In this document: positions 4,119 to 49,739 of the stretch, piece by piece
Position numbering within the stretch: position 1 is the stretch's first letter
Layout: each line of letters starts with the position of its first letter
Source: Strobilurus pachycystidiatus
Lineage: Eukaryota; Basidiomycota; Agaricomycetes; Agaricales; Physalacriaceae
Length of the DNA stretch: 64,000 nucleotides
Reading direction: 5' to 3'
Assembly (NCBI GenBank): GCA_019915135.1
Contig: JAHLMK010000015.1
Span: 682,001 to 746,000 of the forward strand
Notes under the pieces: model-generated
The model's database searches: none
Told to the model about the DNA's origin: nothing
The model's input: only the letters and a program-made list of their open reading frames with translations
Position numbers and translations under genes: made by a program

Positions 4119-4434
4119 TGCCGCGGCCCATTTGTACTTACGTATTGCTCGTGTTCACTGTATAATACTTTCATGCTCCCTTTTTGGCCCGAAAACTCGA
4201 TTCCCCAACGTCAAGGCTAAGTCTAGAATCAGAGACATGTCAGCCAAGTGCAAGTTTCAGGCTGACAAGACCATCACACAAGAAGTGGAGGTGTAACACA
4301 AGGTATATATTGTAAACTACAAGAGCTACAGGAGTGTGATTAAGTGGTACACTATTTTCTGAATTTTCTACGACTACGACGGAGACACAAACAGATATCA
4401 GGATAACACGACGACGGCAACACTACGACAACGG
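4119..4434. other. Spacer up to the retrotransposon insertion site
   Basis: Noncoding. The last 60 bp are rich in CGACGAC/CAACGG words (acgacggcaacactacgacaacgg). The same character resumes right of the element (acgggacaacgatcgatgac), so the element landed in one simple-sequence-like patch. Confidence 0.6.
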
Positions 4435-6103
4435 TGATACGCAGGGTACTATTCCAGTACTAGAAACGGGGAATTTTGCGATTCCTGAACAGCCCAAAGA
4501 CCTTAGGAACCTCCAGTCAAGTACTTAGGATAGAGCACGCAGGAGTTACTGCCTTGACGCGGGCAAGCCTCCAGGACAAGGTCCAGGCGCCTTAACAAGT
4601 CCTTTAGGACAGGCGCGATCGAAACCTTCGATCACCTTCATCCGAATATCCTTATCCGCGCGTTGGATCCCTTTCAAGATCCCGTACCTTTGCGTGTACC
4701 TTGTACTACAGACGATGTGCTATAACCATTCGCACCCAAGGAGGGTCCAAGGTCTCCAGGCGGTTCAGTTCGAGCGACCCAAGACCTGCGCACCTCAACC
4801 CAAAGACCTGGAAGGTCCCGAAATAGTTCAAGGACGTCACAACCCTTTTGGGGAAACAATCTTCGGAGCTGTCAAGGACTCCGAACCGACGCCTTCCGCT
4901 ATGCCGATCGATCATGATCCACGATCAAGGACCACCCCGAAAGCAGGGTGTATTACCACTTTAAGAAAGCACTCCCCTGTAGTGTCTGCGCTCGAAAGGA
5001 CGTTCTTAACGATCTCCATCCAACCTATCCACAAGAAAGCAGGTGTCCGTAGGACCTTGCAACATAAAGATACCTAAGGATCGAAGTCCTTATCGGACCT
5101 TGATCTCCTGGGCACAAGGATTGTACCATACCGCCAAGGTGGCGTATATGGCTAAAGGACCAAGCGGCCTGTCCGCAGTTGTTTCGACCAGGGATAGCCA
5201 ATAAGAATCCAGCACTTGTATGACTCGAAAGTCCGATGTATCCGATCCTAGAATAGATGCTTACTCAGTAGGAACCCACCAGTAGTATAAAAGGGCCCAA
5301 AGGACCCATATTTCAGCAGCTTAGAGCCCCCTCCAGTAGCCGCTAGTCAGACGCAGCCATTGTAGTGAATCTATCTCGAGTTTCGACTCATTTCTGCAAA
5401 GTACACAAAGACCCCAAAGACCTTTCCAAGATTTAAAGACATCAGGTGTTGCCAAACTCCTTGAAAGACTCGAAAGAACCTTATTCCGACGTACCAAGTC
5501 AAGTACCAACGAATCTACTTGGTGTTAGAACCTTGTATTCGCAAGAAGGCCGGTTTGCAAGTGGTTCTGCCCTGCACTCACGCTCTTTCGTGAAGTACTT
5601 CCCTTTGAGGAATAAGTCGAGTTTGAACGAGTGTTGTCAACGTCTGAGACACCTTCCGGAACCTTTGGTCCCGGTGCAAGACACTAGAAGTTTGGTTTAA
5701 GTGCAAGAAGGAGTCCTTATCGTTAGCAGTCCAGTGGCGTAAAACCTGCGGTAGCGGCCTGACGATTCCAAGACAAAGTCCTTGTACACCAGAGCACTTG
5801 ATAGGTAGAAGCTACATTGCCTCGCGCTGTTTAAGGTCTTCATACGTCAAGAGGTTCGGCCTACGACTTCAAGGTTTTCTTGTGTCATTTCGATCAGAAT
5901 CCCTACACCCCCAAAAACAACTCGTAGTTTAACTACAGCGATTCGGAATACATCTCTATTTCTCCATTACCCAAAAGCACCTTGTTCTCTCGAACCTTTG
6001 TGCACCCCAGCTCCCTTACAAGGAGTACTAGTTGTGATAAGGATTGATAGTGTGGTTAGACGATAGCTTCTTTTTCAGAGGTCTATTCCGAACTTGCACA
6101 TCA
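4435..6103 (+). repeat. 5' LTR, 1669 bp
   Basis: Direct repeat of 19158-20826 at a constant offset of 14723, with no gaps. It starts TGATAC and ends CACATCA. TATAAAAG at 5286-5293 suggests U3 is about 880 bp, with transcription starting near 5315. The LTR is long for a fungal gypsy element. It contains no convincing coding frame: the longest, 127 residues at 4694-5077, starts at GTG. Confidence 0.95.
5286..5293 (+). promoter_or_regulatory. TATA box of 5' LTR
   Basis: TATAAAAG in a GC-containing context (gtagTATAAAAGggccc). It is correctly placed to initiate the genomic RNA of the element about 30 bp downstream. The identical copy is at 20009-20016. Confidence 0.7.
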
Positions 6104-6108
6104 TATTT

Positions 6109-6128
6109 TGGAGCCCACCGCGAGGGGG
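6109..6128 (+). other. Primer-binding site
   Basis: TGGAGCCCACCGCGAGGGGG begins five bases after the 5' LTR. TGG is the complement of a tRNA CCA tail, and the following bases would pair with a tRNA acceptor stem and T arm. I do not assign the amino acid. Confidence 0.75.
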
Positions 6129-6170
6129 TGTAAATTTTGATTTCGAAAAAGACTTCTAAGTCGACCTTGA

Positions 6171-8039
6171 GATCGGAATCTCCATAAACAAAAGACACTG
6201 GCTGCAAGGAACTCTGGTCGTTACACCAACAGCCAGAACCGCGCAAATCCACAACCCCCAAAAGGAGACCCAGTTATTGCCGGATCTTCAAATCCAGCAA
6301 CCTCTGGTATCACTAGTCGCCTAAGAAGCAATCGCCCAATCGCCGGCTCACTTTACAACGGTTTACCTAGTGAAGTAGCTCAAGCACAGCGACGCTTTGC
6401 AGACCCGACTACTCCCAAGAACCAAAAGAAGAAACGTACGCAAGTACCACCTTCAACACCTACTGCCTCTAGGATCAGATCTTCTTCAGATCCTGAATCA
6501 CCTTCGAGAACTCCAACCAGTACCCGAAGACATTCGGACTCTAGAACATCGCCTAGTCCCGCATTTGTGACACCTTTCGGAAGTCCTTTGACTGACCTTG
6601 AAGACCCCGAAAGTCCAGAACCTATTACCCCCTTCATTGACTTTAACACGTCTACCCAAAACACGATACCAGTTCCAGTAATGGCAGTACGAGCAATTGT
6701 ACCTTCCGAGGAACTTAGTGCTGAAGCTAAGAAAGAGATCCAAGGCAAGAAGATTCCGATACCATTCTCAAGGGATGCTCCCAAATTCAAGGGACACTCC
6801 GGCGATGATGTGAGGGAGTTCTTCACGATGTGCAACTGGATCTTTGACCAGACAGGAATCGCCGAACAAGGTACTAAGTTGGAAGTAGCCGCGCTATACG
6901 CCGGCCACGAACAACGCCTAAGGTGGCACAAAAACCCAGACTACTTGAAAGGTGTCTGGGCGGACTTCCAAGAATCAGTTCTCTCCTCATACTCAAAGGG
7001 AAAGAACGATCCTACGTACGTCCCGGCCGACCTAAAGGATGCCTTGGACCCGTACCTGGCTAGGCCCATAGCCAACAAGCAAAAGTGGGAAAGCTTTCAG
7101 CGCGAAGTGCTCCATATCATGGGACATCTTATCACGTCGGGAGAACTTACCAATAAGGGTGCTATAGAAGATATCAAGTCCTCTATCACAGAGGGAGTTT
7201 GGCATAATGTCCTTGGGGACCTCAGGCGCGATGCGAAAGCTAATGCAACAGCCGGGACAACCCCCACCTATGACTTCACGTTGTCAGAGGTCGAGGCAGC
7301 AATCTCCAACTACTTCTTGACCGATAAATGGATGAGCAAGAGTGCGAAGGATAGTCCTTATAACAGAGAACTTATTCCCGCCTCTACCACCCGAATCAAG
7401 ACAGAGGAGTTGGATGAATACCTGAATAGGGTAGCTAGCCTTCAGGATATTATCCAGAAAGGAGAAAAGGAACGCGAAGAGGCTCGCAAGGCTGATCAGA
7501 AGATGATGGCAGAACTTCTCCATACCTTACAGCGTGGAGGTCCGCAAGGACTCCGCACACAAGGTTTTGTACAAGAAGCCTCGCCGGTTTATCTACAAAC
7601 ACCTGCTCAAGGTGTCTCAGTCCCGACCAACTTACCGAACGGACTCTACAAAGCTCCCCCGGGCGCGTTCCCAGGAAACAAGTTCGTAGTTAACGATGGA
7701 AGGTGCTACTTCTGTCGCGAGCTAGGACACATTGTAGCAAATTGTCCGACAAAGGAAATGTGCGAAAGCAATGGTCATATCTACAAGCCTGGCGGTACCA
7801 ACATATATCATGTAACGAATGGAACTACTAGTCAACCTATTCAAAGGGTTAGTCCCAAGCAGCCTCTCAGCCCTTGGGAACAAGTTCAGAAGTTTCAACA
7901 AGAAAATGCACCTAAGGTATCGGCGTTCCAATCTCAAGAAGATGAGTTCGCACCTGAGGTCGCGATGTATGTTCAAACCCCAACCCAAGAAGAAGAGTTT
8001 GCCCCCGACGCCTATCAGGGTTTCGGCAGGGCTCGATGA
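6171..8039 (+). CDS. gag: Gag capsid/nucleocapsid polyprotein
   Basis: Structural protein forming the cytoplasmic particle in which the RNA is copied. The frame is open from 6171 (after TGA at 6168-6170) to TGA at 8037-8039, but the first in-frame ATG is at 6681. The ATG-less 510 bp still read as a proline/serine-rich protein (TPKNQKKKRTQ, SSSDPESPSRTPTS), so translation may start at a non-ATG codon or after splicing. From 6681 the protein has a helical capsid-like region (FKGHSGDDVREFF, MCNWIFDQTGIAEQG), a coiled-coil segment (QKGEKEREEARKADQKM) and a CCHC zinc knuckle, CYFCRELGHIVANC (C-x2-C-x4-H-x4-C). The stop overlaps the start of the protease frame by ATGA. Confidence 0.85.
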   Translation, partial: DRNLHKQKTLAARNSGRYTNSQNRANPQPPKGDPVIAGSSNPATSGITSRLRSNRPIAGSLYNGLPSEVAQAQRRFADPTTPKNQKKKRTQVPPSTPTASRIRSSSDPESPSRTPTSTRRHSDSRTSPSPAFVTPFGSPLTDLEDPESPEPITPFIDFNTSTQNTIPVPVMAVRAIVPSEELSAEAKKEIQGKKIPIPFSRDAPKFKGHSGDDVREFFTMCNWIFDQTGIAEQGTKLEVAALYAGHEQRLRWHKNPDYLKGVWADFQESVLSSYSKGKNDPTYVPADLKDALDPYLARPIANKQKWESFQREVLHIMGHLITSGELTNKGAIEDIKSSITEGVWHNVLGDLRRDAKANATAGTTPTYDFTLSEVEAAISNYFLTDKWMSKSAKDSPYNRELIPASTTRIKTEELDEYLNRVASLQDIIQKGEKEREEARKADQKMMAELLHTLQRGGPQGLRTQGFVQEASPVYLQTPAQGVSVPTNLPNGLYKAPPGAFPGNKFVVNDGRCYFCRELGHIVANCPTKEMCESNGHIYKPGGTNIYHVTNGTTSQPIQRVSPKQPLSPWEQVQKFQQENAPKVSAFQSQEDEFAPEVAMYVQTPTQEEEFAPDAYQGFGRAR

Positions 8040-9208
8040 AGGAAGGAGTGCAGTTAGCACATACTCCTCCGGAGAGCCAGTTCACTGTAGAAACTCGTCA
8101 AACTCGTCAGAGTACAAAAGCACCTAGTGCACCTTTGGATTCAACTCCACAAAAGAAGGTAACCTCATGGCCTAAGGACCGGGTGTCCGTGGTCATTCCA
8201 AAAGCAGCACCGCCTAAGGTATCATTCTCCAAGCCGGAAGTCACTCAAGAAGTAGAACCTGTTGACCAGGAACTTCTTGACGAAGTCCTGGCGATGGAAG
8301 AACCAGACCCGGTGCCGCAACCAAAAGCAGATTCAACTCTGTCAGAAAAGAACCAACCAAAGGTTCAACCTAAGGAACCTAAGGTCAAGAGTTTCCAACG
8401 TCGTAGCCTGGCAGAAGAACTCTTGCACAAGAATCCCAGTTGGCGTGAAGCCTGGAAATTCTTGTTACCCGAAGCCCTACTAGCTACCAACCCCCCTTGG
8501 CAGCAGAGCATTTCGGACTTCATCAGGAAACGCAACACGCCGGTGGCTGTATTCAAAACGGAAGTAGTGGCCGAAACGGTCCAGGATCACTTCCAACCCG
8601 AGCTATATTCAGTCAACTTTCACGAACAAGGTGATTTACCTATTGGTGGGATTGTAGTCCACGATGCGGTAGAACAGTTTGTAAACCTTTCCGGAGGTCA
8701 CTATACTGGTCCCTTTCAAATGATAAGTGGCAATATGGCGCCGGAAAATGCAGATCTACGAACCTTTTGGCCCTTGATCAACAAGAATGGTAAAAAGGAG
8801 AGTTTAGTGGATGGTGGGTCGCAGATCGCCTCCATTTCGCTCAAGGCAGCATTGGAACTAGGAATAGCCTATGATCCCACTTTCACCATTACTATGGAAA
8901 GTGCGGACAAGGGACGAACCAGTACCTTGGGATTGGCTCGTAACATACCTTTTGACTTTGAAGGAATTGTCTATTACCTTCAGTTGCATGTGTTGCAGGA
9001 TCCCGCCTATGAGGTCCTACTGGGACGACCTTTCGAGATCGTTTCAAACCTGGTCATCACCAACCTTCCCAACGGGAACGCAATCGGAACCCTTACGGAT
9101 AACACCAATGGGAAGAAGTTATCGCTACCTTCTTACCGTCGAGGACAGATCCCAAGACATATGATTCCAGGGGGACAGACGGGTTTTCACGGGAACCTAA
9201 GGACGTAG
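8036..9208 (+). CDS. Retroelement aspartic protease (separate frame)
   Basis: This 390-residue frame starts at ATG 8036, overlapping the gag stop as ATGA, and ends with TAG at 9206-9208. The first half is a proline/lysine-rich linker. The retropepsin core lies near residues 250-355: a catalytic turn LVDGGSQI, then FDFEGIVYYLQLHVL and a flap/C-terminal region EVLLGRPFE. The catalytic turn is D-G-G rather than the usual D-S/T-G; related fungal elements can carry such variants, so this does not prove loss of activity. It would cleave Gag and Pol into mature proteins. Frame relationships suggest restart after gag termination rather than fusion to gag. Confidence 0.85.
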   Translation: MKEGVQLAHTPPESQFTVETRQTRQSTKAPSAPLDSTPQKKVTSWPKDRVSVVIPKAAPPKVSFSKPEVTQEVEPVDQELLDEVLAMEEPDPVPQPKADSTLSEKNQPKVQPKEPKVKSFQRRSLAEELLHKNPSWREAWKFLLPEALLATNPPWQQSISDFIRKRNTPVAVFKTEVVAETVQDHFQPELYSVNFHEQGDLPIGGIVVHDAVEQFVNLSGGHYTGPFQMISGNMAPENADLRTFWPLINKNGKKESLVDGGSQIASISLKAALELGIAYDPTFTITMESADKGRTSTLGLARNIPFDFEGIVYYLQLHVLQDPAYEVLLGRPFEIVSNLVITNLPNGNAIGTLTDNTNGKKLSLPSYRRGQIPRHMIPGGQTGFHGNLRT

Positions 9209-12200
9209 GAAATTCCTATGAAGAAGCCGTGTTGATCCTTGAAAGGTCACCAGAAGGAAACATCGAAGTAAAGCAAAGTTGGATACCTGGTGATAACAGG
9301 GAGACCTTCGGGGAAGGGGACTTAACGTCCTTATACATGAAGAAGTCACCCAATAGGGTTCATCAGGCAGCCAAAAGGCTAAGGAAGCAACACGCCTTCA
9401 TGCACGCATCGATGCACCAAGCATCGACACATATGACAGTCCCAGAACATATGGTGACACCTACGGGACTATTAAAGGTCCCAACCAAGACTCAGGGCTT
9501 TCGCAAGGTATTCAATATCAACCAGATTGCGGAAGACCAAGAAGAACTTAAGTCCTACGCTACTGCGACTTTGAATCTCTTCTATGGGGTACCAAAGGAG
9601 CTAGAACAAGTCTTTACGGGCTTGTCGGTAACCTTACCAAAGGATTACATGGCGGAGGCCCAACAGGAGTTCCTAAGGTTGGAAAGTCAGATCCCTAAGA
9701 GGGGTGTATTCGTAGGAAAGAAGTACAAACCAGTAGCCTTGAAAACCAAAGCTCACCTTGGAACCTTACCGGAAGAATTCAGGATCAAGCGCCACATTCA
9801 TGGAGACCCACTAGCTGGGATGCCGGAATTAGTACCTGATCCACCACCCTTCGTACCCGCAGGTAGGTATACTGCCGAAAGGAGGGAACAGATACAAGCC
9901 GACCACGTCGGGGACTTCCTGACGGATGCAGAAAGACGGATTATAGACTCCATCTTCTGTAAACAGAACGAAGGCTTTGCCTGGGAAGAATCTGAGAAAG
10001 GACACTTCAAACCAGAGTTCTTTCCACCAGTGGATATCCCGGTAATACCGCACACACCTTGGGTGTTGAGGAATATACCAATTCCACCAGGAATCTATGA
10101 CGAAGTCTGTAAGATTATCAAGCACAAACTAGACTCGGGAGTGTATGAGCCTTCGAACTCCTCATACCGCTCCAGGTGGTTCTGTGTTGTTAAGAAGGAT
10201 GGAAAGAAACTTCGCCTAGTGCACAGTCTGGAACCACTCAATGCGGTGACCATTGCGCACTCAGGGTTACCTCCAGCCACGGAGGAACTAGCGGAGTCCT
10301 TTGCAGGACGAAGTTGTGGAGGGACCTTGGATCTGTTCGTTGGATATGACGAACGGCTCCTTGCCACCGCGTCTCGCGATATGACAACCTTCTCGACACC
10401 TTACGGAGCGTTAAGGTTAAAGACCTTACCAATGGGCTGGACTAATTCAGTACCTATCTTTCATGACGATGTTACAACGATTCTCAAGGATGAAATACCA
10501 GCCTTTACCAGACCTTATATCGACGATGTGCCCGTCCGCGGACCCGCTACGCGATATGAACAAGCTGATGGCACCTACGAAACGCTTCCAGGTCATCCTG
10601 AAGTAAGGCGTTTCGTTTGGGAACACCTTGTGAACATGAACAGGATCATACAGCGAATGAAACATGCCGGAGGGACCTTTTCTGGTCACAAGGCTATCAT
10701 TTGTGCAGAAGAGATTGTGGTAGTGGGACATGTCTGTACCTACGAAGGTAGAAAGCCAGCTGAAGATCGCGTTAAGGTGATCTCGGATTGGCCCCCTTGT
10801 AAAGCGCTCACGGAAGTCCGTTCGTTCTTAGGAACAGCTGGAATCTTCAGAGCATTTGTAAAGGACTACTCTAAGAAGGCGTTACCTTTGACCAGGTTAA
10901 CCAAAGACATTACTAAGTTCAGATGGACAGACGAGGAGCAGGAAAGTATGGATACCTTAAAGGAAGCCATACGAACTTGTCCGATGCTGAAACCACTGAA
11001 TTATGAATGGTACACGCCAATCACACTGTCGGTAGACACCTCTTACCAGGCAGTAGGTTTCTATCTGTCCCAGGTAGATCCCAAGGACCCCAAGAAACGA
11101 TACTTTGCAAAGTTTATGTCTCTGACATTAAACGAAAGAGAGGCAAGGTACTCGCAAGCCAAGCGAGAACTATTCGGGCTCTTCAGAGCTCTGTCCGCGT
11201 GCAAGTACTACCTTCTAGGGTGTAGAAAACTAGAAATTGAAGTAGATGCAAAATACATCAAGGGCATGTTATCCAACGTGGACTCCTTAGCGAACGCAAA
11301 CCTGCAAAGGTGGGCTGAGGAGATCTTGATGTACCACTTCACGCTTGTACACGTACCAGGAAAGGTCCATGGCCCGGATGGTTTAAGTCGCCGTCCAGCT
11401 TCAGAGCATGATGTAGTAGTACCCAGACCTCATATAAACATAGAGGATGACGAAGTCAATACCTTTGAGTACCAGGAGCCCAAGGGTCTGCCTGTAGAAA
11501 AGCAACCTTTGGACTTTGAGACTTTCCGGAATGACATCGACAGTAGGGGAGGCTACTTCCAAGAAATAGTGCGGAGTCCTTTACCAGACCATATAAAGGT
11601 TTCTAAAGCGGTAAGGACTTCGGGACTAGTCAACGTTAAGGATATCGAAGGTTGGATGCATATCACGGAGTTCCCAGAGCTCAATAAGAGCAAACGGGAA
11701 CGGTTGTGGGAGACCTATTTGCCCAAACTTCAATCTTACTTACAATCGGAAGATGTACTTGAGGACGAAGACTTGGAGAAATGGAGCAAAGACTTCTTTG
11801 TCCAGCATGAAAGGTTATACCGAACACATTCGGACTCCCACCCCCGTCGAGTGCTACTTCCAAACGAACGAATCCCGGTTTGTAAAGCTCTACACGACCG
11901 GGCAGGACATAAAGGACAATATTCCGTGTTACAACTCATCATGAAGCGATTCTGGTGGCCAGGTATGGAGGTCGACATACGATGGTATGTAAGGACCTGT
12001 GTACTATGTCAGAAACGCCAGAAACGTAACATAAAGGTTGCACCAACGATTACTTCAACTCCAGGTATCTACGAAAGGGCTTATATAGACACCTTCCGGA
12101 TGCCTAAGGCAGGAGAGGAATCCACCCGAAAGAAACGGCCTTCAAAATGGGCCGGCTTCAATGCTGTGACCGTAGCAAGGTGTGGATTAACAAGTTGGCC

Positions 12201-13074
12201 AGAGGCAAGGGCTCTCAAGGAAGAGACCGCCGAGTCACTGGGAGAATGGATCTTTGAGGACATTCTATGCAGGTGGGGTTGTATCAAGGAAATTGTAACC
12301 GACAATGGGCCAGCAATCAAGAAGGCCTTAGTACATATTGAACAGAAATATGGTATTACCGGTATCTTGATCACGGCGTACAATAAGCAAGCCAACGGAA
12401 AGGTTGAACGAGGACACTGGGATATCCGTCAATCTCTCTTCAAGGTATGCAGGGGTAAACCCGAGCAATGGCCAGAGTTCCTACATGAGGTCCTTTGGGC
12501 AGAGCGCATTACCATAAAAAGGAGTCTAGGTACTTCAGCGTTCCAGGCAGTAACCGGTTGTGAACCAATCATGCCAATGGACCTGGAGGAATTGACTTGG
12601 CTGGTCGAAGCACCAGGCCGACTGGTCTCCCATTCGGACCTTATTGCCTTCCGAGCTAGGCAGCTCATCAAGCACAAGGAAGATACTGTCAAGCTAAGGT
12701 CGAAGGTCCTTCTAAATAAACAGAAGGCCGCGGCGAAGTTCCTAGAGGACTTCCAGAACAGTATCCCTCGCTACAAATTCAAAACTGGTGAACTAGTGCT
12801 AGTAAGGAACACTAGGATCGAATCAGAAATGAATGCGAAGTTCAAGGAAAGGTTTATGGGACCTTACGCGGTAGTAACAAGGACCTCAGCAGGAAACTAT
12901 GTCGTCTGCGAGTTGGACGGGACGATCTACAAAGACAAGATAGCTCAGTTCCGTGTAATACCTTTTGTATCGCGACGAGATCCTATAGACCTTGGAAAAC
13001 AGTTCTTTGATCGACTACACTTCATAAGTAAGCCGATCACAAAGACCTTAGATGTCCTTGCCAGAACTACGTGA
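9103..13074 (+). CDS. pol: Pol: reverse transcriptase, RNase H, integrase
   Basis: The frame is open from 9103, overlapping the protease frame by about 100 bp in the -1 phase, and ends at 13074. There is no early ATG, consistent with -1 frameshifting. Domains in order: reverse transcriptase (PYGALRLKTLPMGWTNS and the catalytic YIDDV), a Ty3-type RNase H (SVDTSYQAVGFYLSQ, then ERELFGLFRAL-like and HVPGKVHGPDGLSRRP), a zinc-binding H2C2 region (LHDRAGHKG ... CVLCQKR), and integrase with the DDE residues in AYIDTFRMP, IVTDNGPAIKKA and NGKVERGHWD. The GPY/F module (RFMGPYAVV) follows. I see no chromodomain after it. The roughly 1280-residue length is ordinary for Ty3/gypsy. Confidence 0.95.
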   Translation, partial: HQWEEVIATFLPSRTDPKTYDSRGTDGFSREPKDVGNSYEEAVLILERSPEGNIEVKQSWIPGDNRETFGEGDLTSLYMKKSPNRVHQAAKRLRKQHAFMHASMHQASTHMTVPEHMVTPTGLLKVPTKTQGFRKVFNINQIAEDQEELKSYATATLNLFYGVPKELEQVFTGLSVTLPKDYMAEAQQEFLRLESQIPKRGVFVGKKYKPVALKTKAHLGTLPEEFRIKRHIHGDPLAGMPELVPDPPPFVPAGRYTAERREQIQADHVGDFLTDAERRIIDSIFCKQNEGFAWEESEKGHFKPEFFPPVDIPVIPHTPWVLRNIPIPPGIYDEVCKIIKHKLDSGVYEPSNSSYRSRWFCVVKKDGKKLRLVHSLEPLNAVTIAHSGLPPATEELAESFAGRSCGGTLDLFVGYDERLLATASRDMTTFSTPYGALRLKTLPMGWTNSVPIFHDDVTTILKDEIPAFTRPYIDDVPVRGPATRYEQADGTYETLPGHPEVRRFVWEHLVNMNRIIQRMKHAGGTFSGHKAIICAEEIVVVGHVCTYEGRKPAEDRVKVISDWPPCKALTEVRSFLGTAGIFRAFVKDYSKKALPLTRLTKDITKFRWTDEEQESMDTLKEAIRTCPMLKPLNYEWYTPITLSVDTSYQAVGFYLSQVDPKDPKKRYFAKFMSLTLNEREARYSQAKRELFGLFRALSACKYYLLGCRKLEIEVDAKYIKGMLSNVDSLANANLQRWAEEILMYHFTLVHVPGKVHGPDGLSRRPASEHDVVVPRPHINIEDDEVNTFEYQEPKGLPVEKQPLDFETFRNDIDSRGGYFQEIVRSPLPDHIKVSKAVRTSGLVNVKDIEGWMHITEFPELNKSKRERLWETYLPKLQSYLQSEDVLEDEDLEKWSKDFFVQHERLYRTHSDSHPRRVLLPNERIPVCKALHDRAGHKGQYSVLQLIMKRFWWPGMEVDIRWYVRTCVLCQKRQKRNIKVAPTITSTPGIYERAYIDTFRMPKAGEESTRKKRPSKWAGFNAVTVARCGLTSWPEARALKEETAESLGEWIFEDILCRWGCIKEIVTDNGPAIKKALVHIEQKYGITGILITAYNKQANGKVERGHWDIRQSLFKVCRGKPEQWPEFLHEVLWAERITIKRSLGTSAFQAVTGCEPIMPMDLEELTWLVEAPGRLVSHSDLIAFRARQLIKHKEDTVKLRSKVLLNKQKAAAKFLEDFQNSIPRYKFKTGELVLVRNTRIESEMNAKFKERFMGPYAVVTRTSAGNYVVCELDGTIYKDKIAQFRVIPFVSRRDPIDLGKQFFDRLHFISKPITKTLDVLARTT

Positions 13075-13415
13075 CCTTGAGCACCCAAGAAGGAACTACA
13101 GCTTCAAAGGAAGCTAAGGTACCATACCAGATGACGGGGACGTCATCAGAAAAGTAAAGAGAGAATAGAGGGACATCGGTCCATTTATTCAAGGACTATA
13201 AAAATTTTTATTTTAAAACTCATTCTGTGCCCAGCTGGCTACAAAGGTAGCTAAGGTAGCATTGAACTAAGGACAGAATAAGGAAGCAAGACAAGGCACG
13301 AGGCATCAGGGAAGTGGCGGGGTGCGAATAAAGAAAAGCTTAAAAGTGATAAGCCCGTAGGCGATGTGGTAAGCGCAGAAAAGGAAGCACCACTCACCGA
13401 ACAACCACCACGACC
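13075..13415. other. Spacer between pol and ORF3
   Basis: Noncoding. It includes an A/T-rich stretch (ctataaaaatttttattttaaaac) at about 13196-13220 that could serve as a TATA region or terminator. Its position 200 bp before the ORF3 ATG makes it a candidate internal promoter for a subgenomic ORF3 transcript. Confidence 0.4.
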
Positions 13416-15526
13416 ATGCTCCCTCAAGAGAACGACCCCACTGTGGACGCGAAGGTAAGTGCCTGGCACGATCACAGCGTAGAACGAGGCGGTGAACTTA
13501 CTTACCAAAAGGAGCAGTCACCGCCGCCATCACAGCCGCCGACGAAAGGCGACCAGGAGCCTCCCGCAGTCCAGGAGGAGAAGGAAATGGAGGTGCAAGG
13601 GCAGGAGCAGGTGAGTAGTGACGAAAAACGCGTTGAGAAACGGCGAAACTCACCACTGCCACCCCCCTCTGCTAGCTCCCGTCCATTCCCTGCGAAGCCA
13701 GGCCGGACCATGTCAAAATGACGCGTCCCCTGTTCGACTACAGCGGTTTCTTGACGAACAGGACCGCGCCGCCGGAACTAGACGCAGGTATCAGCCTGCA
13801 CCTGGCCGAGTTGCTGTGCGCCAACCCAACGACGACACGGGAGATCTTGCAGAAGGCCGGGTACTACGACTACCTGCACAATGGGGTCTTCTGGCTGACG
13901 TTCCAGGACGCGCTGGCGGCGAAACCAGCCAGCAGGGCCACTCCGCTCGAACGAGTGGAGACCGCGCTCAGCACCGCGTGGCGCGCCACCTCCGCCTACA
14001 AAAAGCAGGTCCGTCCCACTCGAGCAACCATGTTCCTGAACAACGACCGCGTAGCCCCAGAGCTCGCCATCCGGCTCTCAGAAGACGACGCTCAGCGTTG
14101 TTTTCTGGAGTTGGACTATCTCTGGATGTTCGTGAATGATCAGGATCGCGCCAACTTGTTCTGGGGCGCCTTGATAGTGGAGATGCGCAAGCAGCGCGAC
14201 AACCTCCCCATCCACAGGTCGTTCCTCAAAACGATGGACGAACTCATCGAGAGCGCGATTGCCGAGCTGGGTATCACGGACTACCAGCGCGAAGGGACGC
14301 CGAGTCTCGACAGCAAGGTCGACGACGAGGGAACTCCGCGCCCCACGATGCAACAGCTCGCGCAGGAGGCGTCGCCCAGTCCCCACGACTCGCGAGCCCC
14401 GTCTCCAGCATTCTCGTCACACCACGAACCCACGCCCGAGATGGAACCTCCCCAGCGACGACCAGTTGTCGCGGCGGGTAAAGGTGGCCCCAAATCGGTT
14501 ACCAAGTACGTCCGCCGAACCATCGCGCCGCTAATCCTTGCTGACGCCTCGACCAGGCCAAAGGCCGTCGTCGTGAAGGTGGAGCCAAAGGACAAGGACA
14601 AGGACGTCGCCCCCACCCGGAAGACCTCGGTCGCGCGCGCCACCACCGGTGGAAGCCAAAAGCGCAAGTTCGTCGAGGAGGAACCAGAGGAGGAGGACGA
14701 GTTGGACGAAGACGCCGAAGCCAGCGACGAGGAGGAGGACGACTTCGTCCTCGACGTCCGCGACAAGACCAACCCGCGCATCCCCCTCCACCGCGACGAT
14801 GGTGTCTGCGTCCCCTGCATCAAGCAGCGGTTGACGTGCACCTACTTCCGGATCCACGCCACGCCCGCCGAGAAGAACAATAGCTTCACGTGCGACCAGT
14901 GCAAAGAGAAGGACGGACAACATGGTCCGTGCTGGGTCGCGTGGAGGCGAAGTCAGGTCCCCGCGCCGTGGAAGGAGGTCGCGCTGAAGGTCCGCGCCCA
15001 GTTGCAGGCCGAGGCGAGGAACAAGCCCGACTCTCAGATCCGGTCCCGCCGCCATCAGGACTACTCCGAAGCCGCCCAAGCTATCGCGAAGGAAGCGGAC
15101 CAGCGGTGGAAGGAGGAGAAGCAGCGGAAGAAGGACGAGCCCCCGGCGAAGCGCCGTCGCGTCGAGAGCACCGCGGGAAAGAAAGGCAAGGCCAAGAAGG
15201 AGGAGACGTCGGACGAAGAAGGAACTGGCGACTCCGACATCGAGGAGGTCCAAGCGCCCCGTACCCGCCTCCAGAAAGGAAAGGTCAGCGCCGCCCCGCC
15301 TCCCGCCTCCACCAAGTCCTCGAAGGGGGCCACCACCTCGATCAGCACGGTCCAACGCCAGGACAAAGGCGAAGGAGCTAGCCGTCAAGGTGTGCCGTCC
15401 TCCGCCTCCGCCAGCCGCATCGACCCCGCCGAGGACGTGGACAAGGTCCTCGCGATGTACTTCTCCCTCAGTGAGAAGAGCCGCCGAAAGTTCAGGAAGA
15501 TAGCCGAGATTGCGGTGGGACGTTAG
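13416..15526 (+). CDS. Retrotransposon accessory ORF3, spliced, 662 aa, Cys-rich
   Basis: Exons 13416-13454, 13512-13610 and 13676-15526 join in frame (introns gtaagt..aaaag and gtgagt..gctag), extending the long exon upstream of its ATG at 13718. The N-terminal third is helical (ILQKAGYYDYLHNGVFWL, FLELDYLWMFVNDQDRANLF). A low-complexity acidic and lysine-rich centre follows. A cysteine cluster comes next: CVPCIKQRLTC, then CDQCKEKDGQHGPC, resembling fungal zinc-cluster or GAG-pre-type fingers and likely binding zinc. The tail holds a basic nuclear-localisation-like PAKRRRVES and a final helix. Codon use is strikingly GC-rich compared with gag-pol and the antisense genes. It occupies the env position but has no signal peptide or membrane helix; a nuclear or nucleic-acid-binding role is inferred. 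Confidence 0.8.
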
Positions 15527-15913
15527 TAGCGTCCCGCCGCTAATCTTTTCTTTTTTTTTATATACACGAATACCAGTCAGTGCCAAACGGACACTTTTCA
15601 TATACGCATCCCCCGCCCCGTTGTATTTTATAAAAATATACAACTTCTTGTACTCCAAAGAACCGTGTGAAAACCACCAAGGTGCAAGAACAAGGAACCT
15701 TAGTGGGAACCTTAAGTCAAGGGGAGAATCCAGGACTCTCCTTGGAATATCAAAGGTCGCGAAGTTCGGGGGCTGAGAACCTTAGACGATGAAAAGGTCC
15801 ACAAGAAGCTGTGTTACGAGTAAAGTAATACAGACAAAGCAATGTGACTATAAGGAACATTCGTAAGGCAGAAAAGAAAAGCGACCTTTAGGTCAAAAGA
15901 AGTCAACTAAGGA
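15527..15913. other. Spacer between ORF3 and the antisense genes
   Basis: Noncoding convergent spacer. It starts with a T-rich segment after the ORF3 stop (ttttctttttttttatatac), a likely 3' end region. It holds the internal polypurine-like motif at 15713-15727. Confidence 0.5.
15713..15727 (+). other. Internal duplicate of the polypurine tract
   Basis: TAAGTCAAGGGGAGA here is identical over 15 nt to the tract that directly abuts the 3' LTR (19143-19157). A weaker shared word, CCACCAAGG, lies 39 bp upstream here and 32 bp upstream there. It could be a second plus-strand primer site or a scar of cargo acquisition. Confidence 0.7.
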
Positions 15914-17050
15914 CTAAGCAAAACGACTCCAATCAGGAGGGACCGCAAGGTTCGCAAGGCGCGCATAGAAAGGTCCTGCGTGGCTAAGGTCGATTGCTAT
16001 CATACTAGCCGCAAGGAGTTCGTAGTCTACTTCGGTGGCCTCCGACCAGTCGATGAGCCAGAGTAGTGGATCGATGATAGGCAGCGACTGGTTGGGGCGC
16101 TGGAAACACAGAAGTTACAAACGGACCTCAAACTACGAAGTTGTTCACGGACCCGATTGGCGGGAAGGTCAATCTCGGGGATCAACCGACGCATATTGGG
16201 AGGTCTATCCAACGCGTAGGCGTCGTCCCAGCCGTAAAGAGCAGAGTTCTGACGTTGGAACTCTGGCCACCACTTCATAACCGTGACAAGGTCGGCAGGA
16301 AGGTCCCCATACTGAACAGGAAGGACCTTCAGGTCGTCAGACCCGATGTAAAGCGAGCGAAGGAGTGTGGAAAAGCCGGAGTAACCACCAAAGTGGGCCT
16401 CGACCTACGTCTAAGGTCAGCGCCGACCACAAGACATGAAAGGAAAAGACCAGGTTTAACTCACCATGAAAGGTCCAATGAACTCTTGGGTAAACCAAGG
16501 GTGACTCGCAAGGATGTCCATGTTAAGGTCCCCCAGGTGGAAGCGGGCGCCTTCACCGTCAAGGGTATTGCCTTCGGCGAACCAAGCTTTGCAAAGTTCG
16601 ACGGCGGTGTAGTACAAAGGAAAGAAGTGCGCTTTGAAGCCGTGAGGAATGGCCCTGTTCTGGAAGTGAAAAGCGGGTTCCCAGATATAACGAAAGCGGA
16701 CCTAAGGACCATCCGTTAGTCAAGAAAGGTGTCGAGGCGAAGTCAACTAGACCTACCAGGACGTGCAAAAGGTAGCGCAAGGTTGGAACGTCTAGAGGTT
16801 CGTCGCGACCAAAGGCATGAACCGGAGGCTTGAGCTGGGGAAGGAGGCGAGTGTCGTCCTCCGTAGCTAAGGTCCCATCCGGATGACGAACTACCGCAAC
16901 GAAGTAGCGTGTATAGTTGTACATCTCCATGGCGCAGCTCAGCGCAAGGTCCGCTGTGACTAAGTCATGTTGAAAGGAGGTCAAAGGCGAGCGAAGTCGA
17001 ACGCCTTGAATGCGGGTATCTGAAAAGGAAGGCAGGACGGGCGCGGGCAT
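15914..17050 (-). CDS. Antisense retrotransposon gene B, 4 exons, 322 aa
   Basis: Antisense to the element's genomic RNA. Exons 16757-17050, 16465-16701, 16153-16404 and 15914-16099 join in frame from ATG at 17050 to TAG at 15914-15916. The introns are gtaggt..ccttag, gtgagt..cgtag and gtccgt..ttccag, 53-60 nt. The product is aromatic-rich and looks globular: VRFRYIWEPAFHFQNRAIPH, FHLGDLNMDILASHPWF, MKWWPEFQRQNSALYGWDDA, IDPLLWLIDWSEATEVDYE. I recognise no known domain. No signal peptide or clear membrane helix is present. It lies tail-to-tail with ORF3 and 374 bp downstream of antisense gene A. It shares the AAGG/CCTT-rich composition of gag-pol, arguing that it has long been part of the element. 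Confidence 0.75.
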
Positions 17051-17424
17051 GATCAAAGATGAGATTCCTGTCGCCACGACCGACTTAAAAGAAAACCTCC
17101 GCCAGTCAAGAAGGTCCGAACACGCCGATAAAAGGACAAAGTTTAAGCGCCACCAATCTAAAGGTAGGTACGATCGGCGATAGCCGATCGAACTAAGTTC
17201 GATCTTAGGCCTACCAGGAGGCGGTCAGGAAACTTTGAGGGTTCAAATCGAAAGGAGTTGGATTATGCACCAACTGGGCCTAGAGTAGTCTAAGGAAATA
17301 AAGTGACTACCGCTCCTACAAGTGGGAAAGGAATCCGAAACCAGTATGAAGACGAAGTAGTGAAAACTATGAGTAGTACTGGTTAAGACTTGGCGAAAGT
17401 TAAGCTAAAGTAGGACCTTGTAGT
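17051..17424. other. Spacer between the two antisense genes
   Basis: Noncoding, and presumed to hold the promoter of antisense gene B and the 3' end of gene A. Two overlapping perfect hairpins lie at 17171-17204. Confidence 0.5.
17171..17204. repeat. Two overlapping, mutually exclusive hairpins
   Basis: Stem 1 is CGATCGGC (17171-17178) with GCCGATCG (17183-17190), loop GATA. Stem 2 is GATCGAAC (17186-17193) with GTTCGATC (17197-17204), loop TAA. They share GATCG, so only one can form at a time. Confidence 0.75.
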
Positions 17425-18959
17425 CTACTGAGCCTGGTCAATCGCGTCTAAGGCCGAGATATAAAGGTCGCGAGTCGACTGCAGGACTTGGATACGGCCC
17501 CGAATCTCGTTGAAAGTCGAGATAATGTCGTGCCGGTACTGGCGCTCCAAAATGACCAAGTTGGGCGAGATGTTGGGGTCGTCAAGACCAGACAACCTTG
17601 ACATACGCTTGTGGACTTGGGCCAAGGCAGCAGACAGACCATTGATGTACTGGTTCGCTAAGGGGAAGTAACCAGGAATCAATAAGGCAAACCAAGGAGC
17701 GAGGAAGAAGCACCTTACCGCCTTCAAGTTGTTTAAGAACGACGGGTTCGACCCCAAAGGTCGAAGGCCGGGCAGCCTTTACAACACGGCGAGCGTTCTC
17801 ATCGTTAAGCTTACGCTTAGGAGGAGCTTCTTGACCATTGATCGCGCCCAAGGTTTGAAGGGCTTTCTGGTAAACACGGGCGTTAATGTCCATACCGGGA
17901 AGAGCTGCGAAAGGAAGGTAACGGACGGAAGATGACTATTAAAGAAGTCATAAGGACGTCCGGGACAAACATAGGATTCAAAGGAACGTACCGCTTCGGC
18001 TTCCTTTGACAAGGAATTGGCGAGTTGGAGCTGGCGAAAGGCTTCAATAAAGGAAGATGAGACTGGCAAAGAAATTGAGCGCACAGTATCACCGACGACG
18101 ACAACGGAGTCCTCACCGTCGCTCTCGCCAGCTGCCACATCGTCAGCCCAATTAAAGTACTCCGGACGAAAGAAGCGCGCACAAGAGTCGGGATCCATCG
18201 CGACGTCGCCGTCTCCCGCCTCGGCTCGTTTCTCCATGGCCTCGGTAACGACCTCGGGCGATTTCTTCGTCTTCTAAGCGAAGACATCCAGAGGTTACAG
18301 TAGGAAACCGACGAGTAACGAACGGACATACCTTGCCTTTCTCAAGCTTGTCCGGCTTGAAATAAGCGTTATCCGGATGCATAGGGTGACCCGGGGACAG
18401 GCCAGGGAAGTGGGCGTTAGACGCCTTCTTGCAGCTGCTCACCAAAGGTTGGAGGATATGAGCGATGTGGTGCGTCGGCGTCTGAGGGTGAATCCCCAGC
18501 AGGTGTACCAGCATCCCTACATAGAGGCGAAGGTTGAAAAAGAACACCGCCATGTCCGTCGACACCTTGGAACCATTCGGAAAGGTGCGAAGGTCATGGG
18601 CGACGGCCTAAAGAAAACAAGGACAGGATGAAGTCAGGATCAGGAAAAGAACACAGCGAAGGAGTACACACAAGGACTCTCTCCATGATCTTGTCAACAT
18701 AGCCGGTGATCTCCAGTGCCACGTCGGGATTCGAACACGCCTTCTTGAGGTCCAGACGATGGACCTTGGGAATGATGAGCGTAAGATGCATGCCGAGGTA
18801 CATAAGGAAGTCGGGTGTGTTGGCTGGAGGGTCGTAGTCGAGCGCATAAGCAACGAGACCGGCGCCAAGGTCGCGCGTAGTGATCAGGTCCTTCGCGGAC
18901 GGAACGTGCGGCGTTGTGGGAAGCAGTTTTGCGATGGGGGTCCAAGTTTTGGGAGCCAT
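17425..18959 (-). CDS. Antisense retrotransposon gene A, 5 exons, 431 aa
   Basis: Exons 18672-18959, 18332-18607, 17992-18273, 17719-17935 and 17425-17657 join in frame from ATG 18959 to TAG 17425-17427; the lengths sum to 432 codons. Introns are 56-64 nt with standard donors (gtgtgt, gtatgt, gtacgt, gtaagg). Visible features are a hydrophobic N-terminal domain (PDFLMYLGMHLTLIIPKVHR), HLLGIHPQTPTHHIAHIL, a lysine-rich patch (KKSPEVVTEAMEKRAE), an acidic serine stretch (AAGESDGEDSVVVV), PPKRKLNDENARRVVKAARP (nuclear-signal-like), and a C-terminal coiled coil (LERQYRHDIISTFNEIRGRI). I do not recognise the family. Transcription would start in 18960-19157 or within the 3' LTR, running toward pol. 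Confidence 0.75.
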
Positions 18960-19157
18960 GATAGGATAAAGGCAGGAATGAAAGGTCTGAGGACAAGTCC
19001 CAGAACCTTTTATAACGGAACGAAGTTAGGCAAAAGAGGGTCCATCGGGCGATAGAAACCAAAAGGGGACTTCGTCACGGCGGCCTGGTACCCAGGATAA
19101 AGGTTCTGAACCACCAAGGACTATGTCGCGGACGACATTTCATAAGTCAAGGGGAGA
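18960..19157. other. Spacer before the 3' LTR
   Basis: Noncoding 198 bp between the ATG of antisense gene A and the 3' LTR. It must hold that gene's promoter or 5' leader as well as the polypurine tract. Confidence 0.5.
19143..19157 (+). other. Polypurine tract
   Basis: TAAGTCAAGGGGAGA ends exactly at the first base of the 3' LTR (TGATAC at 19158), the place where plus-strand DNA synthesis is primed. Confidence 0.8.
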
Positions 19158-20826
19158 TGATACGCAGGGTACTATTCCAGTACTAGAAACGGGGAATTTT
19201 GCGATTCCTGAACAGCCCAAAGACCTTAGGAACCTCCAGTCAAGTACTTAGGATAGAGCACGCAGGAGTTACTGCCTTGACGCGGGCAAGCCTCCAGGAC
19301 AAGGTCCAGGCGCCTTAACAAGTCCTTTAGGACAGGCGCGATCGAAACCTTCGATCACCTTCATCCGAATATCCTTATCCGCGCGTTGGATCCCTTTCAA
19401 GATCCCGTACCTTTGCGTGTACCTTGTACTACAGACGATGTGCTATAACCATTCGCACCCAAGGAGGGTCCAAGGTCTCCAGGCGGTTCAGTTCGAGCGA
19501 CCCAAGACCTGCGCACCTCAACCCAAAGACCTGGAAGGTCCCGAAATAGTTCAAGGACGTCACAACCCTTTTGGGGAAACAATCTTCGGAGCTGTCAAGG
19601 ACTCCGAACCGACGCCTTCCGCTATGCCGATCGATCATGATCCACGATCAAGGACCACCCCGAAAGCAGGGTGTATTACCACTTTAAGAAAGCACTCCCC
19701 TGTAGTGTCTGCGCTCGAAAGGACGTTCTTAACGATCTCCATCCAACCTATCCACAAGAAAGCAGGTGTCCGTAGGACCTTGCAACATAAAGATACCTAA
19801 GGATCGAAGTCCTTATCGGACCTTGATCTCCTGGGCACAAGGATTGTACCATACCGCCAAGGTGGCGTATATGGCTAAAGGACCAAGCGGCCTGTCCGCA
19901 GTTGTTTCGACCAGGGATAGCCAATAAGAATCCAGCACTTGTATGACTCGAAAGTCCGATGTATCCGATCCTAGAATAGATGCTTACTCAGTAGGAACCC
20001 ACCAGTAGTATAAAAGGGCCCAAAGGACCCATATTTCAGCAGCTTAGAGCCCCCTCCAGTAGCCGCTAGTCAGACGCAGCCATTGTAGTGAATCTATCTC
20101 GAGTTTCGACTCATTTCTGCAAAGTACACAAAGACCCCAAAGACCTTTCCAAGATTTAAAGACATCAGGTGTTGCCAAACTCCTTGAAAGACTCGAAAGA
20201 ACCTTATTCCGACGTACCAAGTCAAGTACCAACGAATCTACTTGGTGTTAGAACCTTGTATTCGCAAGAAGGCCGGTTTGCAAGTGGTTCTGCCCTGCAC
20301 TCACGCTCTTTCGTGAAGTACTTCCCTTTGAGGAATAAGTCGAGTTTGAACGAGTGTTGTCAACGTCTGAGACACCTTCCGGAACCTTTGGTCCCGGTGC
20401 AAGACACTAGAAGTTTGGTTTAAGTGCAAGAAGGAGTCCTTATCGTTAGCAGTCCAGTGGCGTAAAACCTGCGGTAGCGGCCTGACGATTCCAAGACAAA
20501 GTCCTTGTACACCAGAGCACTTGATAGGTAGAAGCTACATTGCCTCGCGCTGTTTAAGGTCTTCATACGTCAAGAGGTTCGGCCTACGACTTCAAGGTTT
20601 TCTTGTGTCATTTCGATCAGAATCCCTACACCCCCAAAAACAACTCGTAGTTTAACTACAGCGATTCGGAATACATCTCTATTTCTCCATTACCCAAAAG
20701 CACCTTGTTCTCTCGAACCTTTGTGCACCCCAGCTCCCTTACAAGGAGTACTAGTTGTGATAAGGATTGATAGTGTGGTTAGACGATAGCTTCTTTTTCA
20801 GAGGTCTATTCCGAACTTGCACATCA
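19158..20826 (+). repeat. 3' LTR, 1669 bp
   Basis: Same length as the 5' LTR. I compared the translated frames and the last 400 bases directly and found no substitution. It ends ATCA and is followed by ACGG. Confidence 0.95.
20009..20016 (+). promoter_or_regulatory. TATA box of 3' LTR
   Basis: Second copy of TATAAAAG. From here read-through transcription would run into the 3' end of the leftward gene at 20964-21926, giving antisense RNA. Confidence 0.55.
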
Positions 20827-20963
20827 ACGGGACAACGATCGATGACGACAACAACGGGGGAGTAACAATGGAGATAAGTAACGAGATATGCAGAGAAATG
20901 ATGGGTCCATTGATTGACAGTCCAAAAGATAGGCGGCGGAGGGCCGCCGTAAGGTGCAACCGT

Positions 20964-32817: not shown

Positions 32818-36097
<3,280 letters not shown>

Positions 36098-47894: not shown

Positions 47895-48960
47895 CTAATC
47901 AGATGATCCCTCTAGTGCTTTCACAATTCCGAACGCTGCCCCTGCAGCAATACCACCGACAAGCAGTGTGCTCACGGCGCCCCAGATGATAGTGAGAGCA
48001 TTGGTACCAGCACCTGTCACTCGAGCTTTGACAGCACCAAAGATGAGAAGAACGATGCCAGTGACGATACATGAGTAGATGAGGGCTGTGGCGGCCTTGG
48101 GGATGAAGAAGTAGGGGAACAAGGGGATCAGGCCACCCAGAAGATATCCCATGCCGATTGTGAATGCGGAGATATATAGGCGCTTTGTTGGGACTTCCTC
48201 TGCGAACGAATGTCAGACGGTGAAGGACGCACGGTGAAGAGATGACATACCGAGGCCCTCGCCGAACTTCAACAGGAACGCCGTCAAGCCCACGTCCTTG
48301 CTCCACCTCAAACCGCCCGACTCCTCGTCCGACCCTGATGCGTACCCATTGTTGCCTCCGTCAACCTCGACGTCGCGTAGGTTCTTTGCGACCGCCCGGG
48401 ACGTAACTTCATCGACGCCAACTGGACCGAGAACGTCTGCAACTTCGCGTTCCATCTCGCCGGAACAGCTCCGGATGACACGCTCTGCGGTTTGCTTGTG
48501 AAGGTAGCGGTAGTGGTCGCGCTCTGCTTGGGATGCAAGGAAACCGCCGATGCCCATCGAGATGGCGCCGGCGATGAGCTCCGCAATACCGCCTAGCACA
48601 ACCAGCTTCGATTCTCCGAGGGAAGAGAGTCCCGCTGTCAAGGCGAAGGGTACAGTAAGTCCGTCGGACAGGCCAATGATCCTATGCGGAGAGTCAATGT
48701 CAACCGCCGTCGCGACCGCTGCACAGAGTGACTTACACATCGCGCACAACGTCTGGATCGACGAGATGGCGGTCGTCGTTTTTGAGTTCTTTGCAGCAGA
48801 CGCCGTCGGTCCTGGTGTCGCGCGCGCACTTGGCGGCGAGTGGGGTGGCGTCGGGGGTTGCTGACGCCTCAATGGGCCACACTGGCGGTTTGTTTGTCTT
48901 GACCTGCGAGTCGCGTGGCGGGAGGGCGACGGATGCGGCGGCGGCTGGGGTGGAAGACAT
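47895..48960 (-). CDS. ccc1: CCC1/VIT1-family iron or manganese transporter
   Basis: Vacuolar-type Fe2+/Mn2+ transporter that stores metal in the vacuole. Spliced leftward from ATG 48960 to TAG 47895-47897. A cytosolic N-terminus is followed by the family signature IIGLSDGLTVPFALTAGLSSLG (split by an intron), then KLVVLGGIAELIAGAISMGIGGFLASQAE, a metal-binding loop with paired glutamates (EMEREVADVLGPVGVDE), and the terminal helices YISAFTIGMGYLLGGLIPLFPYFF, ALIYSCIVTGIVLLIFGAVKA and STLLVGGIAAGAAFGIV. Five membrane helices as in the family. The sequence does not reveal whether iron or manganese is preferred. In yeast, CCC1 is induced by high iron; I see no operator to confirm that here. Confidence 0.9.
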
Positions 48961-49739
48961 TGTGTGGGATGTGGAAGTAGGTGGTGGGAGGCGGTGAAGA
49001 AGGCGAAAGCTTGCCGAGGATAATTTATCGCTGAGCGTGACGTCATTACGTGATCGGCCTCCGCCCAGTAAGCCAATGAGACGGCGATGATTTTGTGATT
49101 GGTTCAAAGGCATTTGCCTCCCATTGGCCAGTTCGCTGCCCCTGGAACGCGAATCAGACGCGTTGTTTTCTCTTCGGCATCCTCCTGTTCACGCCTTGTC
49201 AGCAACTTCAGGTAACAGAGGGCTTCCCCTTTCCCCATCACTCTGTACCGTCCCGAGATCCAATGGCAGTCGTCGCGATGGACTACCACTCCCGCATTGG
49301 ACACTGCGCCCACCATGGAAGCTAGCCAGACCGTACTGGGCGACCAGCTGCCACGTTGGGCGACCGCTTTGCCACAGTGCGTATCTTGTCGATTACAGAG
49401 CGCAAATCCAGACCGAACTCCTAGGTCACCCATCTACGAGGATACTCGCGTTCTATTCTACGCTACCGCCGCCTGCGTAGTGACGTGTATCGACAGTCTT
49501 TGCTGTCCAGTGATTGTCGTATCTACAGACGGTCGTCATGAAACAATACCTCAGCGTGTCCTTCGTCTTTTCCAGCATACACGTAACCGTCTTCGCCTCC
49601 CGCGCAACCAGCTCCATGTACAATCTTCATGTCCATTACCGAGATGGTAACGGTGACTGCGTGAACGAAATCTTGCATGAAGTTGGTCTCTCTCTTCCTG
49701 TTGTTCGATGTCGTATCTTATCGGCGTTCAGAACGTATT
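48961..49739. other. Intergenic region
   Basis: Promoter side of CCC1 followed by frames with no clear identity. Parts of 49514-49680 (YLSVSFVFSSIHVTVFASRA) could be a very decayed membrane segment of the ABC transporter relic to the right. Confidence 0.45.

Follow-up and report, generated by a model that had tools for sequence, protein, structure and literature searches.

The DNA analysed here, referred to as the window, is a stretch of 64,000 nucleotides from Strobilurus pachycystidiatus (genome 51.8 Mb, 61 contigs) and corresponds to bases 682001-746000 of contig C15. Fifteen matches to DUF6533, a domain of mushroom-forming fungi, are in keeping with a basidiomycete, as is a Fungal_trans domain. 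Window positions 4435-20826 are occupied by a Ty3-type LTR retrotransposon that consists of gag-pro-pol and three further genes with predicted introns, A, C and B. The 5' LTR (4435..6103) and the 3' LTR (19158..20826), both on the + strand, are 1669 bp each with 0 differences between them, and their match stops exactly at these positions; the LTRs begin with TG and end with CA, and ACGG flanks the element on each side (4431-4434 and 20827-20830) as a 4-bp target duplication. These ends confirm the 16.4-kb element with matching 1669-bp LTRs that had been proposed in a preliminary description of this DNA. A TATAAAA motif is located at 5286 in the 5' LTR.

The primer-binding site TGGAGCCCACCGCGAGGG (6109..6126, + strand) begins after a five-base gap from the 5' LTR and comprises 18 nt complementary to the 3' end of tRNA-Lys plus CCA. 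A pattern search for the complementary tRNA end gave 13 matches in the genome, and ARAGORN, when introns were allowed, assigned all four tRNAs read to Lys; these tRNAs contain introns. The gag open frame (6171..8039, stop to stop, + strand) encodes a CCHC knuckle. It is followed by a protease frame (7958..9208, + strand), which lies in the -1 frame relative to gag and has a weak match to gag-asp_proteas (E 0.017), and by a pol frame (9103..13074, + strand), in the -1 frame relative to protease, for RT, RNase H and integrase. Pfam reported RNase H and, after it, H2C2 in pol, with no report for RVT_1; among solved structures Ty3 Gag-Pol is the closest (E 1.3e-37 over RT-RNase H), with a match to PFV integrase further along the frame (E 2.8e-8). 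The order of RT, RNase H and integrase and the sequence relation to Ty3 indicate that the element belongs to the Ty3/Gypsy group (Metaviridae), and it has the TG..CA LTRs, tRNA primer site and short target duplication of that group. An assignment to the chromovirus branch was rejected, as no chromodomain at the integrase C-terminus was found among the Pfam matches of pol with E up to 1. The three successive -1 frames of gag, protease and pol show one zero-frame slippery heptamer per overlap on the + strand, GGGTTTC (8018-8024) for gag/protease and GGGTTTT (9181-9187) for protease/pol; the whole gag frame holds six zero-frame slippery heptamers in 621 codons, and the RNA folds 3' of the two sites are not stronger than those of shuffled sequences (z -0.24 and -0.83).

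Three predicted accessory genes downstream of pol

Gene A is on the sense strand and is predicted to be spliced from three exons (13416..13454, 13512..13610 and 13676..15526, +) to encode 662 aa. The other two genes are antisense. Gene C has four predicted exons (exon 1, 16757..17050; exon 2, 16465..16701; exon 3, 16153..16404; exon 4, 15914..16099; all -) and encodes 322 aa, and gene B has five (exon 1, 18672..18959; exon 2, 18332..18607; exon 3, 17992..18273; exon 4, 17719..17935; exon 5, 17425..17657; all -) and encodes 431 aa. The protein lengths equal those given in the preliminary description, the splicing being a prediction. All nine predicted introns are of the GT..AG type and 53-65 nt long, the seven antisense ones measuring 53-64 nt. 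A TATAAAA at 13197..13203 (+) upstream of gene A is a predicted promoter, and CTATAAAA, the TATA region before this gene, was found in 10 of the 12 other copies read. A second TATAAAA at 19008..19014 (-), 55 nt before the ATG of gene B, is a predicted antisense promoter; the start of gene C in the window is preceded by TTTTAA only, not by TATAAAA.

Pfam gave no significant match for any of the three proteins (B hits 0 families, and C only Ssr4_N at E 0.22), a profile search of the PDB gave nothing significant for A or C, and protein database searches with B and C (8000 and 1744 candidates) found nothing. The same kind of search with exon 3 of gene A returned two proteins, 67% and 45% identical, the longest contigs being 3.1 and 4.2 kb; viral contigs contain no match to pol, A or C, and neither phage records nor prokaryote genome contigs contain a match to A. 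Exon 3 encodes six cysteines that are invariant in five of the five A proteins, spaced C-x2-C-x6-C-x17-C-x2-C-x9-C in the window, with basic clusters near them. The DNA-binding signature of the Zn(II)2Cys6 family is C-x2-C-x6-C-x(5-12)-C-x2-C-x(6-8)-C. The cysteine cluster of A resembles this fungal cluster but has longer loops, and the Pfam model Zn_clus matched just one of the five A proteins, at E 0.39. On the basis of the six-cysteine cluster and the basic runs, the gene A product is likely a nucleic-acid-binding protein.

Gene order and introns could be compared with a second family in the same genome, represented by the loci L044 and L057, in which A on the sense strand is likewise followed by C and B on the antisense strand. 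Gene C of this family (two copies) encodes 322 aa at 50% identity to the window protein, with saturated synonymous sites and with the three introns in the same places and phases. Because its splice sites were picked for their similarity to the protein of the window, matching places were favoured; where separate second-family C matches change frame, they do so at the same intron places without any similarity-guided choice. L044 also has TATAAAA 54 nt before the start of gene B and 42 nt before gene C. Of the evidence for the antisense genes being real, the conserved C introns and the matching TATAAAA boxes are the strongest. The splice search gave no open model for gene B of L044, and exon 3 of this gene shifts frame in both L044 (about 5020-5040) and L057, pointing to either an extra intron or a shared frame shift.

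Copies in the genome and selection on the accessory genes

The genome carries dozens of copies of the element. A search with the LTR listed 41 matches (the best 40 of 209 candidates were scored), many of them paired about 14.7 kb apart; the LTRs of the 30 best-scoring loci are 99-100% identical to those of the window, and the ten pairs in which both LTRs were compared differ within the pair by 0 to 2 bases and 0 to 10 gap columns. In nine of these ten pairs the 4-bp target duplication is perfect, with CG as its two central bases (ACGG, ACGC, GCGC or ACGT; flanks of L011-L038), and GCGC flanks three of three solo LTRs read, so CpG targets are preferred for insertion.

The best 37 of 138 candidate copies of pol are 97-100% identical. 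A search for copies with the same three genes had been suggested as a check on the preliminary description, and other copies do carry them: gene A adjoins pol in 25 of the 37 copies and is missing from the other 12. Exon 3 of gene A, searched against the same genome (best 71 of 87 candidates), is an open frame of 612-617 aa at 32 loci; that it stays open there, and that the intron places and phases of gene C are kept at 50% protein identity, puts the gene models far beyond chance. By our own grouping of that search, about 42 gene A loci belong to the window family, and about 10 of them are broken or short. Two more distant A groups, of about 43% and 37% identity, also appear among the best 71 candidates. 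At one pol copy (L056, C18:747500-749370) the match to the element ends at 13122, and 5 kb beyond is a stretch, interrupted by stops, that resembles gene A at 40%.

The coding sequences were then compared between copies. Pooled pN/pS is 0.188 for gene A (12 sequences), 0.146 for exons 1-4 of gene B (12 sequences), 0.138 for gene C (6 sequences) and 0.136 for part of gag (10 sequences; 0.144 with the 8 stricter rows). Codons with synonymous changes only outnumber changed codons by 222 to 156 in A, 18 to 9 in B, 34 to 18 in C and 28 to 12 in gag, giving P < 1e-5 for each against an assumed neutral synonymous share of 25%, values that are too small because related copies are not independent. Frame and splice sites are kept in six of six A and C gene pairs read. 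The 11 other copies of gene A, and hence the 5 other copies of gene C, were drawn from loci already open in the exon 3 search, and the finding that 12 of 12 gene A copies are open is therefore not independent evidence. The loci L009 and L010 represent the window element. The copies of gene B were not chosen by frame, and 12 of 13 have exons 1-4 intact; from this sample L037 was dropped (a 29-nt gap in exon 3), and L014 and L024, matched only in part in this region, were left unused. From the gag sample L025 and L038 were dropped for gaps, while L023 and L035 were kept for the value of 0.136 and dropped for that of 0.144; the one-base insertion of these two near 6185, which by our reading precedes the first in-frame ATG, was excluded from the comparison. 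Among the gene A copies, chosen from the open ones, omega is 0.080-0.203 across the 64 pairs, of 66, whose dS exceeds 0.05, and dS reaches 0.62.

These comparisons support purifying selection on A, B and C between copies, about as strong as that on gag. Selection had been proposed in the preliminary description from intact frames in one recent copy; the conclusion stands (rounded pN/pS 0.19, 0.15 and 0.14 for A, B and C vs 0.14 for gag), although it is the comparison between copies that shows it, which intact frames alone would not have done. It is conceivable that B and C serve chiefly as antisense RNA damping the element, as a form of copy-number control, with their proteins secondary. Both genes are antisense to the genomic RNA, B has a TATA box, and for plant elements one source discusses antisense RNA as a means of silencing (PMC7264820), but the codon counts of B and C point to constraint at the protein level and the introns of gene C are conserved, which makes this reading unlikely.

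The 12 pol copies without gene A (of the best 37 of 138 candidates) were all read. Ten of them (L045-L054) share one 5.1-kb deletion, in which 13317 is joined to 18403 and A, C and most of B are gone; of the remaining two, one lacks A only and one is different. In the window the left (13307..13317, +) and right (18403..18413, +) edges of this recurrent deletion are marked by the 11-base repeat CAGGGAAGTGG. One shared junction in 10 copies indicates a single deletion that has spread to at least 10 places, from which it follows that the module is not needed in cis. Taken together with the purifying selection on complete copies, this is most simply read as trans action of the products; the same spread could also mean that the accessory module is simply dispensable. 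The loss of the genes from these copies is also what would be expected if the three genes were captured host cargo, serving the host or nothing and carried along by a young burst. This we regard as quite improbable: pN/pS is about as low as for gag, the second family has the same gene order with dS saturated for C, and the A alleles reach the dS given above even though the LTRs of the family are about 99% identical. Of the earlier label "cargo-bearing", the extra genes are borne out, while "accessory" is the apter word, as the genes behave as parts of the element.

Exchange of gene A between elements

Gene A is 81-100% identical to that of the window (full and partial matches), while pol is 97-100% identical in the same best 37 of 138 candidates; in the C23 element the values are 82% for A and 99% for pol. 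Over 23 elements with pol at 97-99%, the identities of pol and A are uncorrelated (Spearman -0.15, P 0.50). These identities are whole percents, the window and C3:3044789 (where A was seen only as protein) were left out, and the range of pol identity is narrow because the pol set is the best 37 of 138 candidates. Nearest relatives also differ between blocks along gene A.

The clearest case, with a single element read per A type, is a pair of second-family elements at C3:564 kb and C1:3885 kb. Upstream of A their identity is 96.5% over 780 bp, and downstream it is 96.8% over 4167 bp; it is lower, 89%, in the stretches adjoining the gene (320 bp on the upstream side and 250 bp on the downstream side), and the A proteins are only 32% identical. 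The edges of the swap lie about 190 bases before exon 3 on the left and about 50 bases past the stop on the right. By these comparisons gene A is a swappable cassette that has been exchanged whole between elements. The most likely route would be template switching between two co-packaged RNAs during reverse transcription, as deduced from the way LTR elements replicate.

Exchange of alleles would be explained if A were an envelope-like or particle surface protein. Its position after pol, sense orientation and predicted splicing fit such a role, and it is the most variable part of the aligned region; the highest 19-residue hydropathy mean in A, however, is 1.01, with no membrane-like segment and with basic clusters instead, and we hold this identity to be very improbable. 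On the same hydropathy, an Env-bearing element, with a membrane protein gene after pol, was rejected as a class for the window element. That A is merely faster-evolving or hypermutated, as might be suggested by its divergence, the highest within the accessory region of family-1 copies, is scarcely credible given the switching of nearest relatives along the gene, the independence of A identity from pol identity and a second-family swap with 97% outer flanks against 32% protein identity.

As a tentative idea, which we consider possible though doubtful, gene A could be a specificity gene whose ancient alleles are held under balancing selection and shuffled as a whole cassette. It would then form a "serotype" or self-recognition system, acting only on matching elements or escaping a matching host silencer.

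Proposed role and relation to known elements

Both introns of gene A are retained in all 33 matches that span them, the window included, as judged by match length, so the RNA that is reverse-transcribed is likely unspliced. Given this and the TATAAAA at 13197, gene A is likely made from its own transcript. The introns of C and B run opposite to the genomic RNA; they cannot be spliced from it and would hence survive transposition. We consider it reasonably probable that this Ty3-type family has moved recently and that purifying selection maintains its three extra genes, which likely encode trans-acting nuclear factors that would control the RNA or DNA of the element itself. Gene A would be transcribed from its own TATA promoter, and C and B in the antisense direction from their own predicted promoters. 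The product of A may be an exporter or regulator of the unspliced genomic RNA, as CERV is for Cer1, and copies that lack the module likely rely on the products of complete copies.

Extra genes after pol are known from several LTR elements, cited here from the available parts of the sources. In the plant elements Grande, RIRE2 and Retand, antisense genes lie between pol and the 3' LTR and are kept in most copies, and nuclear or DNA-binding roles have been proposed for them (PMC11963269, PMC7264820). The TRP28 domain (PF04195) is present in 97% of Retand clusters, whereas B and C here are without it; a Retand-type element was rejected for the window, the Pfam search of B and C having found no antisense TRP28 gene. 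In the available texts on these three elements the word "intron" is absent and allele swapping is undescribed (PMC11963269, PMC7264820); one of them does refer to env-like genes being spliced and recommends that antisense and spliced transcripts be examined (PMC7264820). Boty of Botrytis and Sclerotinia has an antisense gene, brtn, between pol and the 3' LTR (PMC7264820, PMC8365987). Compared by description only, and as far as the available text goes, it has one extra gene vs three here. LTR elements of bdelloid rotifers have extra ORF3 genes after pol, expressed through spliced messages, and diverse retroelement types have these genes in common (PMC5408684); these elements, however, are from animals, the known types include env, DEDDy and GDSL, and antisense genes are undescribed in the available text (PMC5408684).

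For Cer1 of C. elegans, CERV is made from a spliced mRNA while the genomic RNA stays unspliced (PMC10309623). According to the available part of that source CERV shares sequence with GAG (PMC10309623), whereas A lies after pol as a gene in its own right, for which a promoter is predicted, and we advance as a hypothesis that A may do a CERV-like job for unspliced genomic RNA. Among fungal elements, Ty3 elements of the basidiomycete Postia have captured a dUTPase as an extra coding domain, which differs in lying within or beside Pol, with antisense genes undescribed in the available text (PMC2864245). The crapaud family of Podospora, also of the LTR type, has diverged variants confined to one segment, but in the available account this is the 5' half of the LTR and not a protein gene such as A (PMC10787394).

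In the open-access literature searched, no three spliced accessory genes and no gene swapping were found described for a basidiomycete LTR element. The element appears to belong to a known general kind, with extra genes after pol, and to be set apart by the number of its intron-bearing genes (three, of which two are antisense) and by the exchange of gene A. Retrotransposons are usually described as gag-pol parasites. Here complete copies with a selected, intron-bearing module of three genes coexist with stripped copies that likely live off them, which offers a natural system for accessory gene function and for the survival of introns through an RNA life cycle, and raises the question of why, in a family otherwise almost uniform, gene A is reshuffled in the form of ancient alleles. 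Such accessory genes are likely to be counted as host genes by gene prediction. Ordinary host genes near the element include those for an MCM helicase (window 34045-35657) and a VIT1-family protein (48213-49103), and a Fungal_trans domain is also present in the window.
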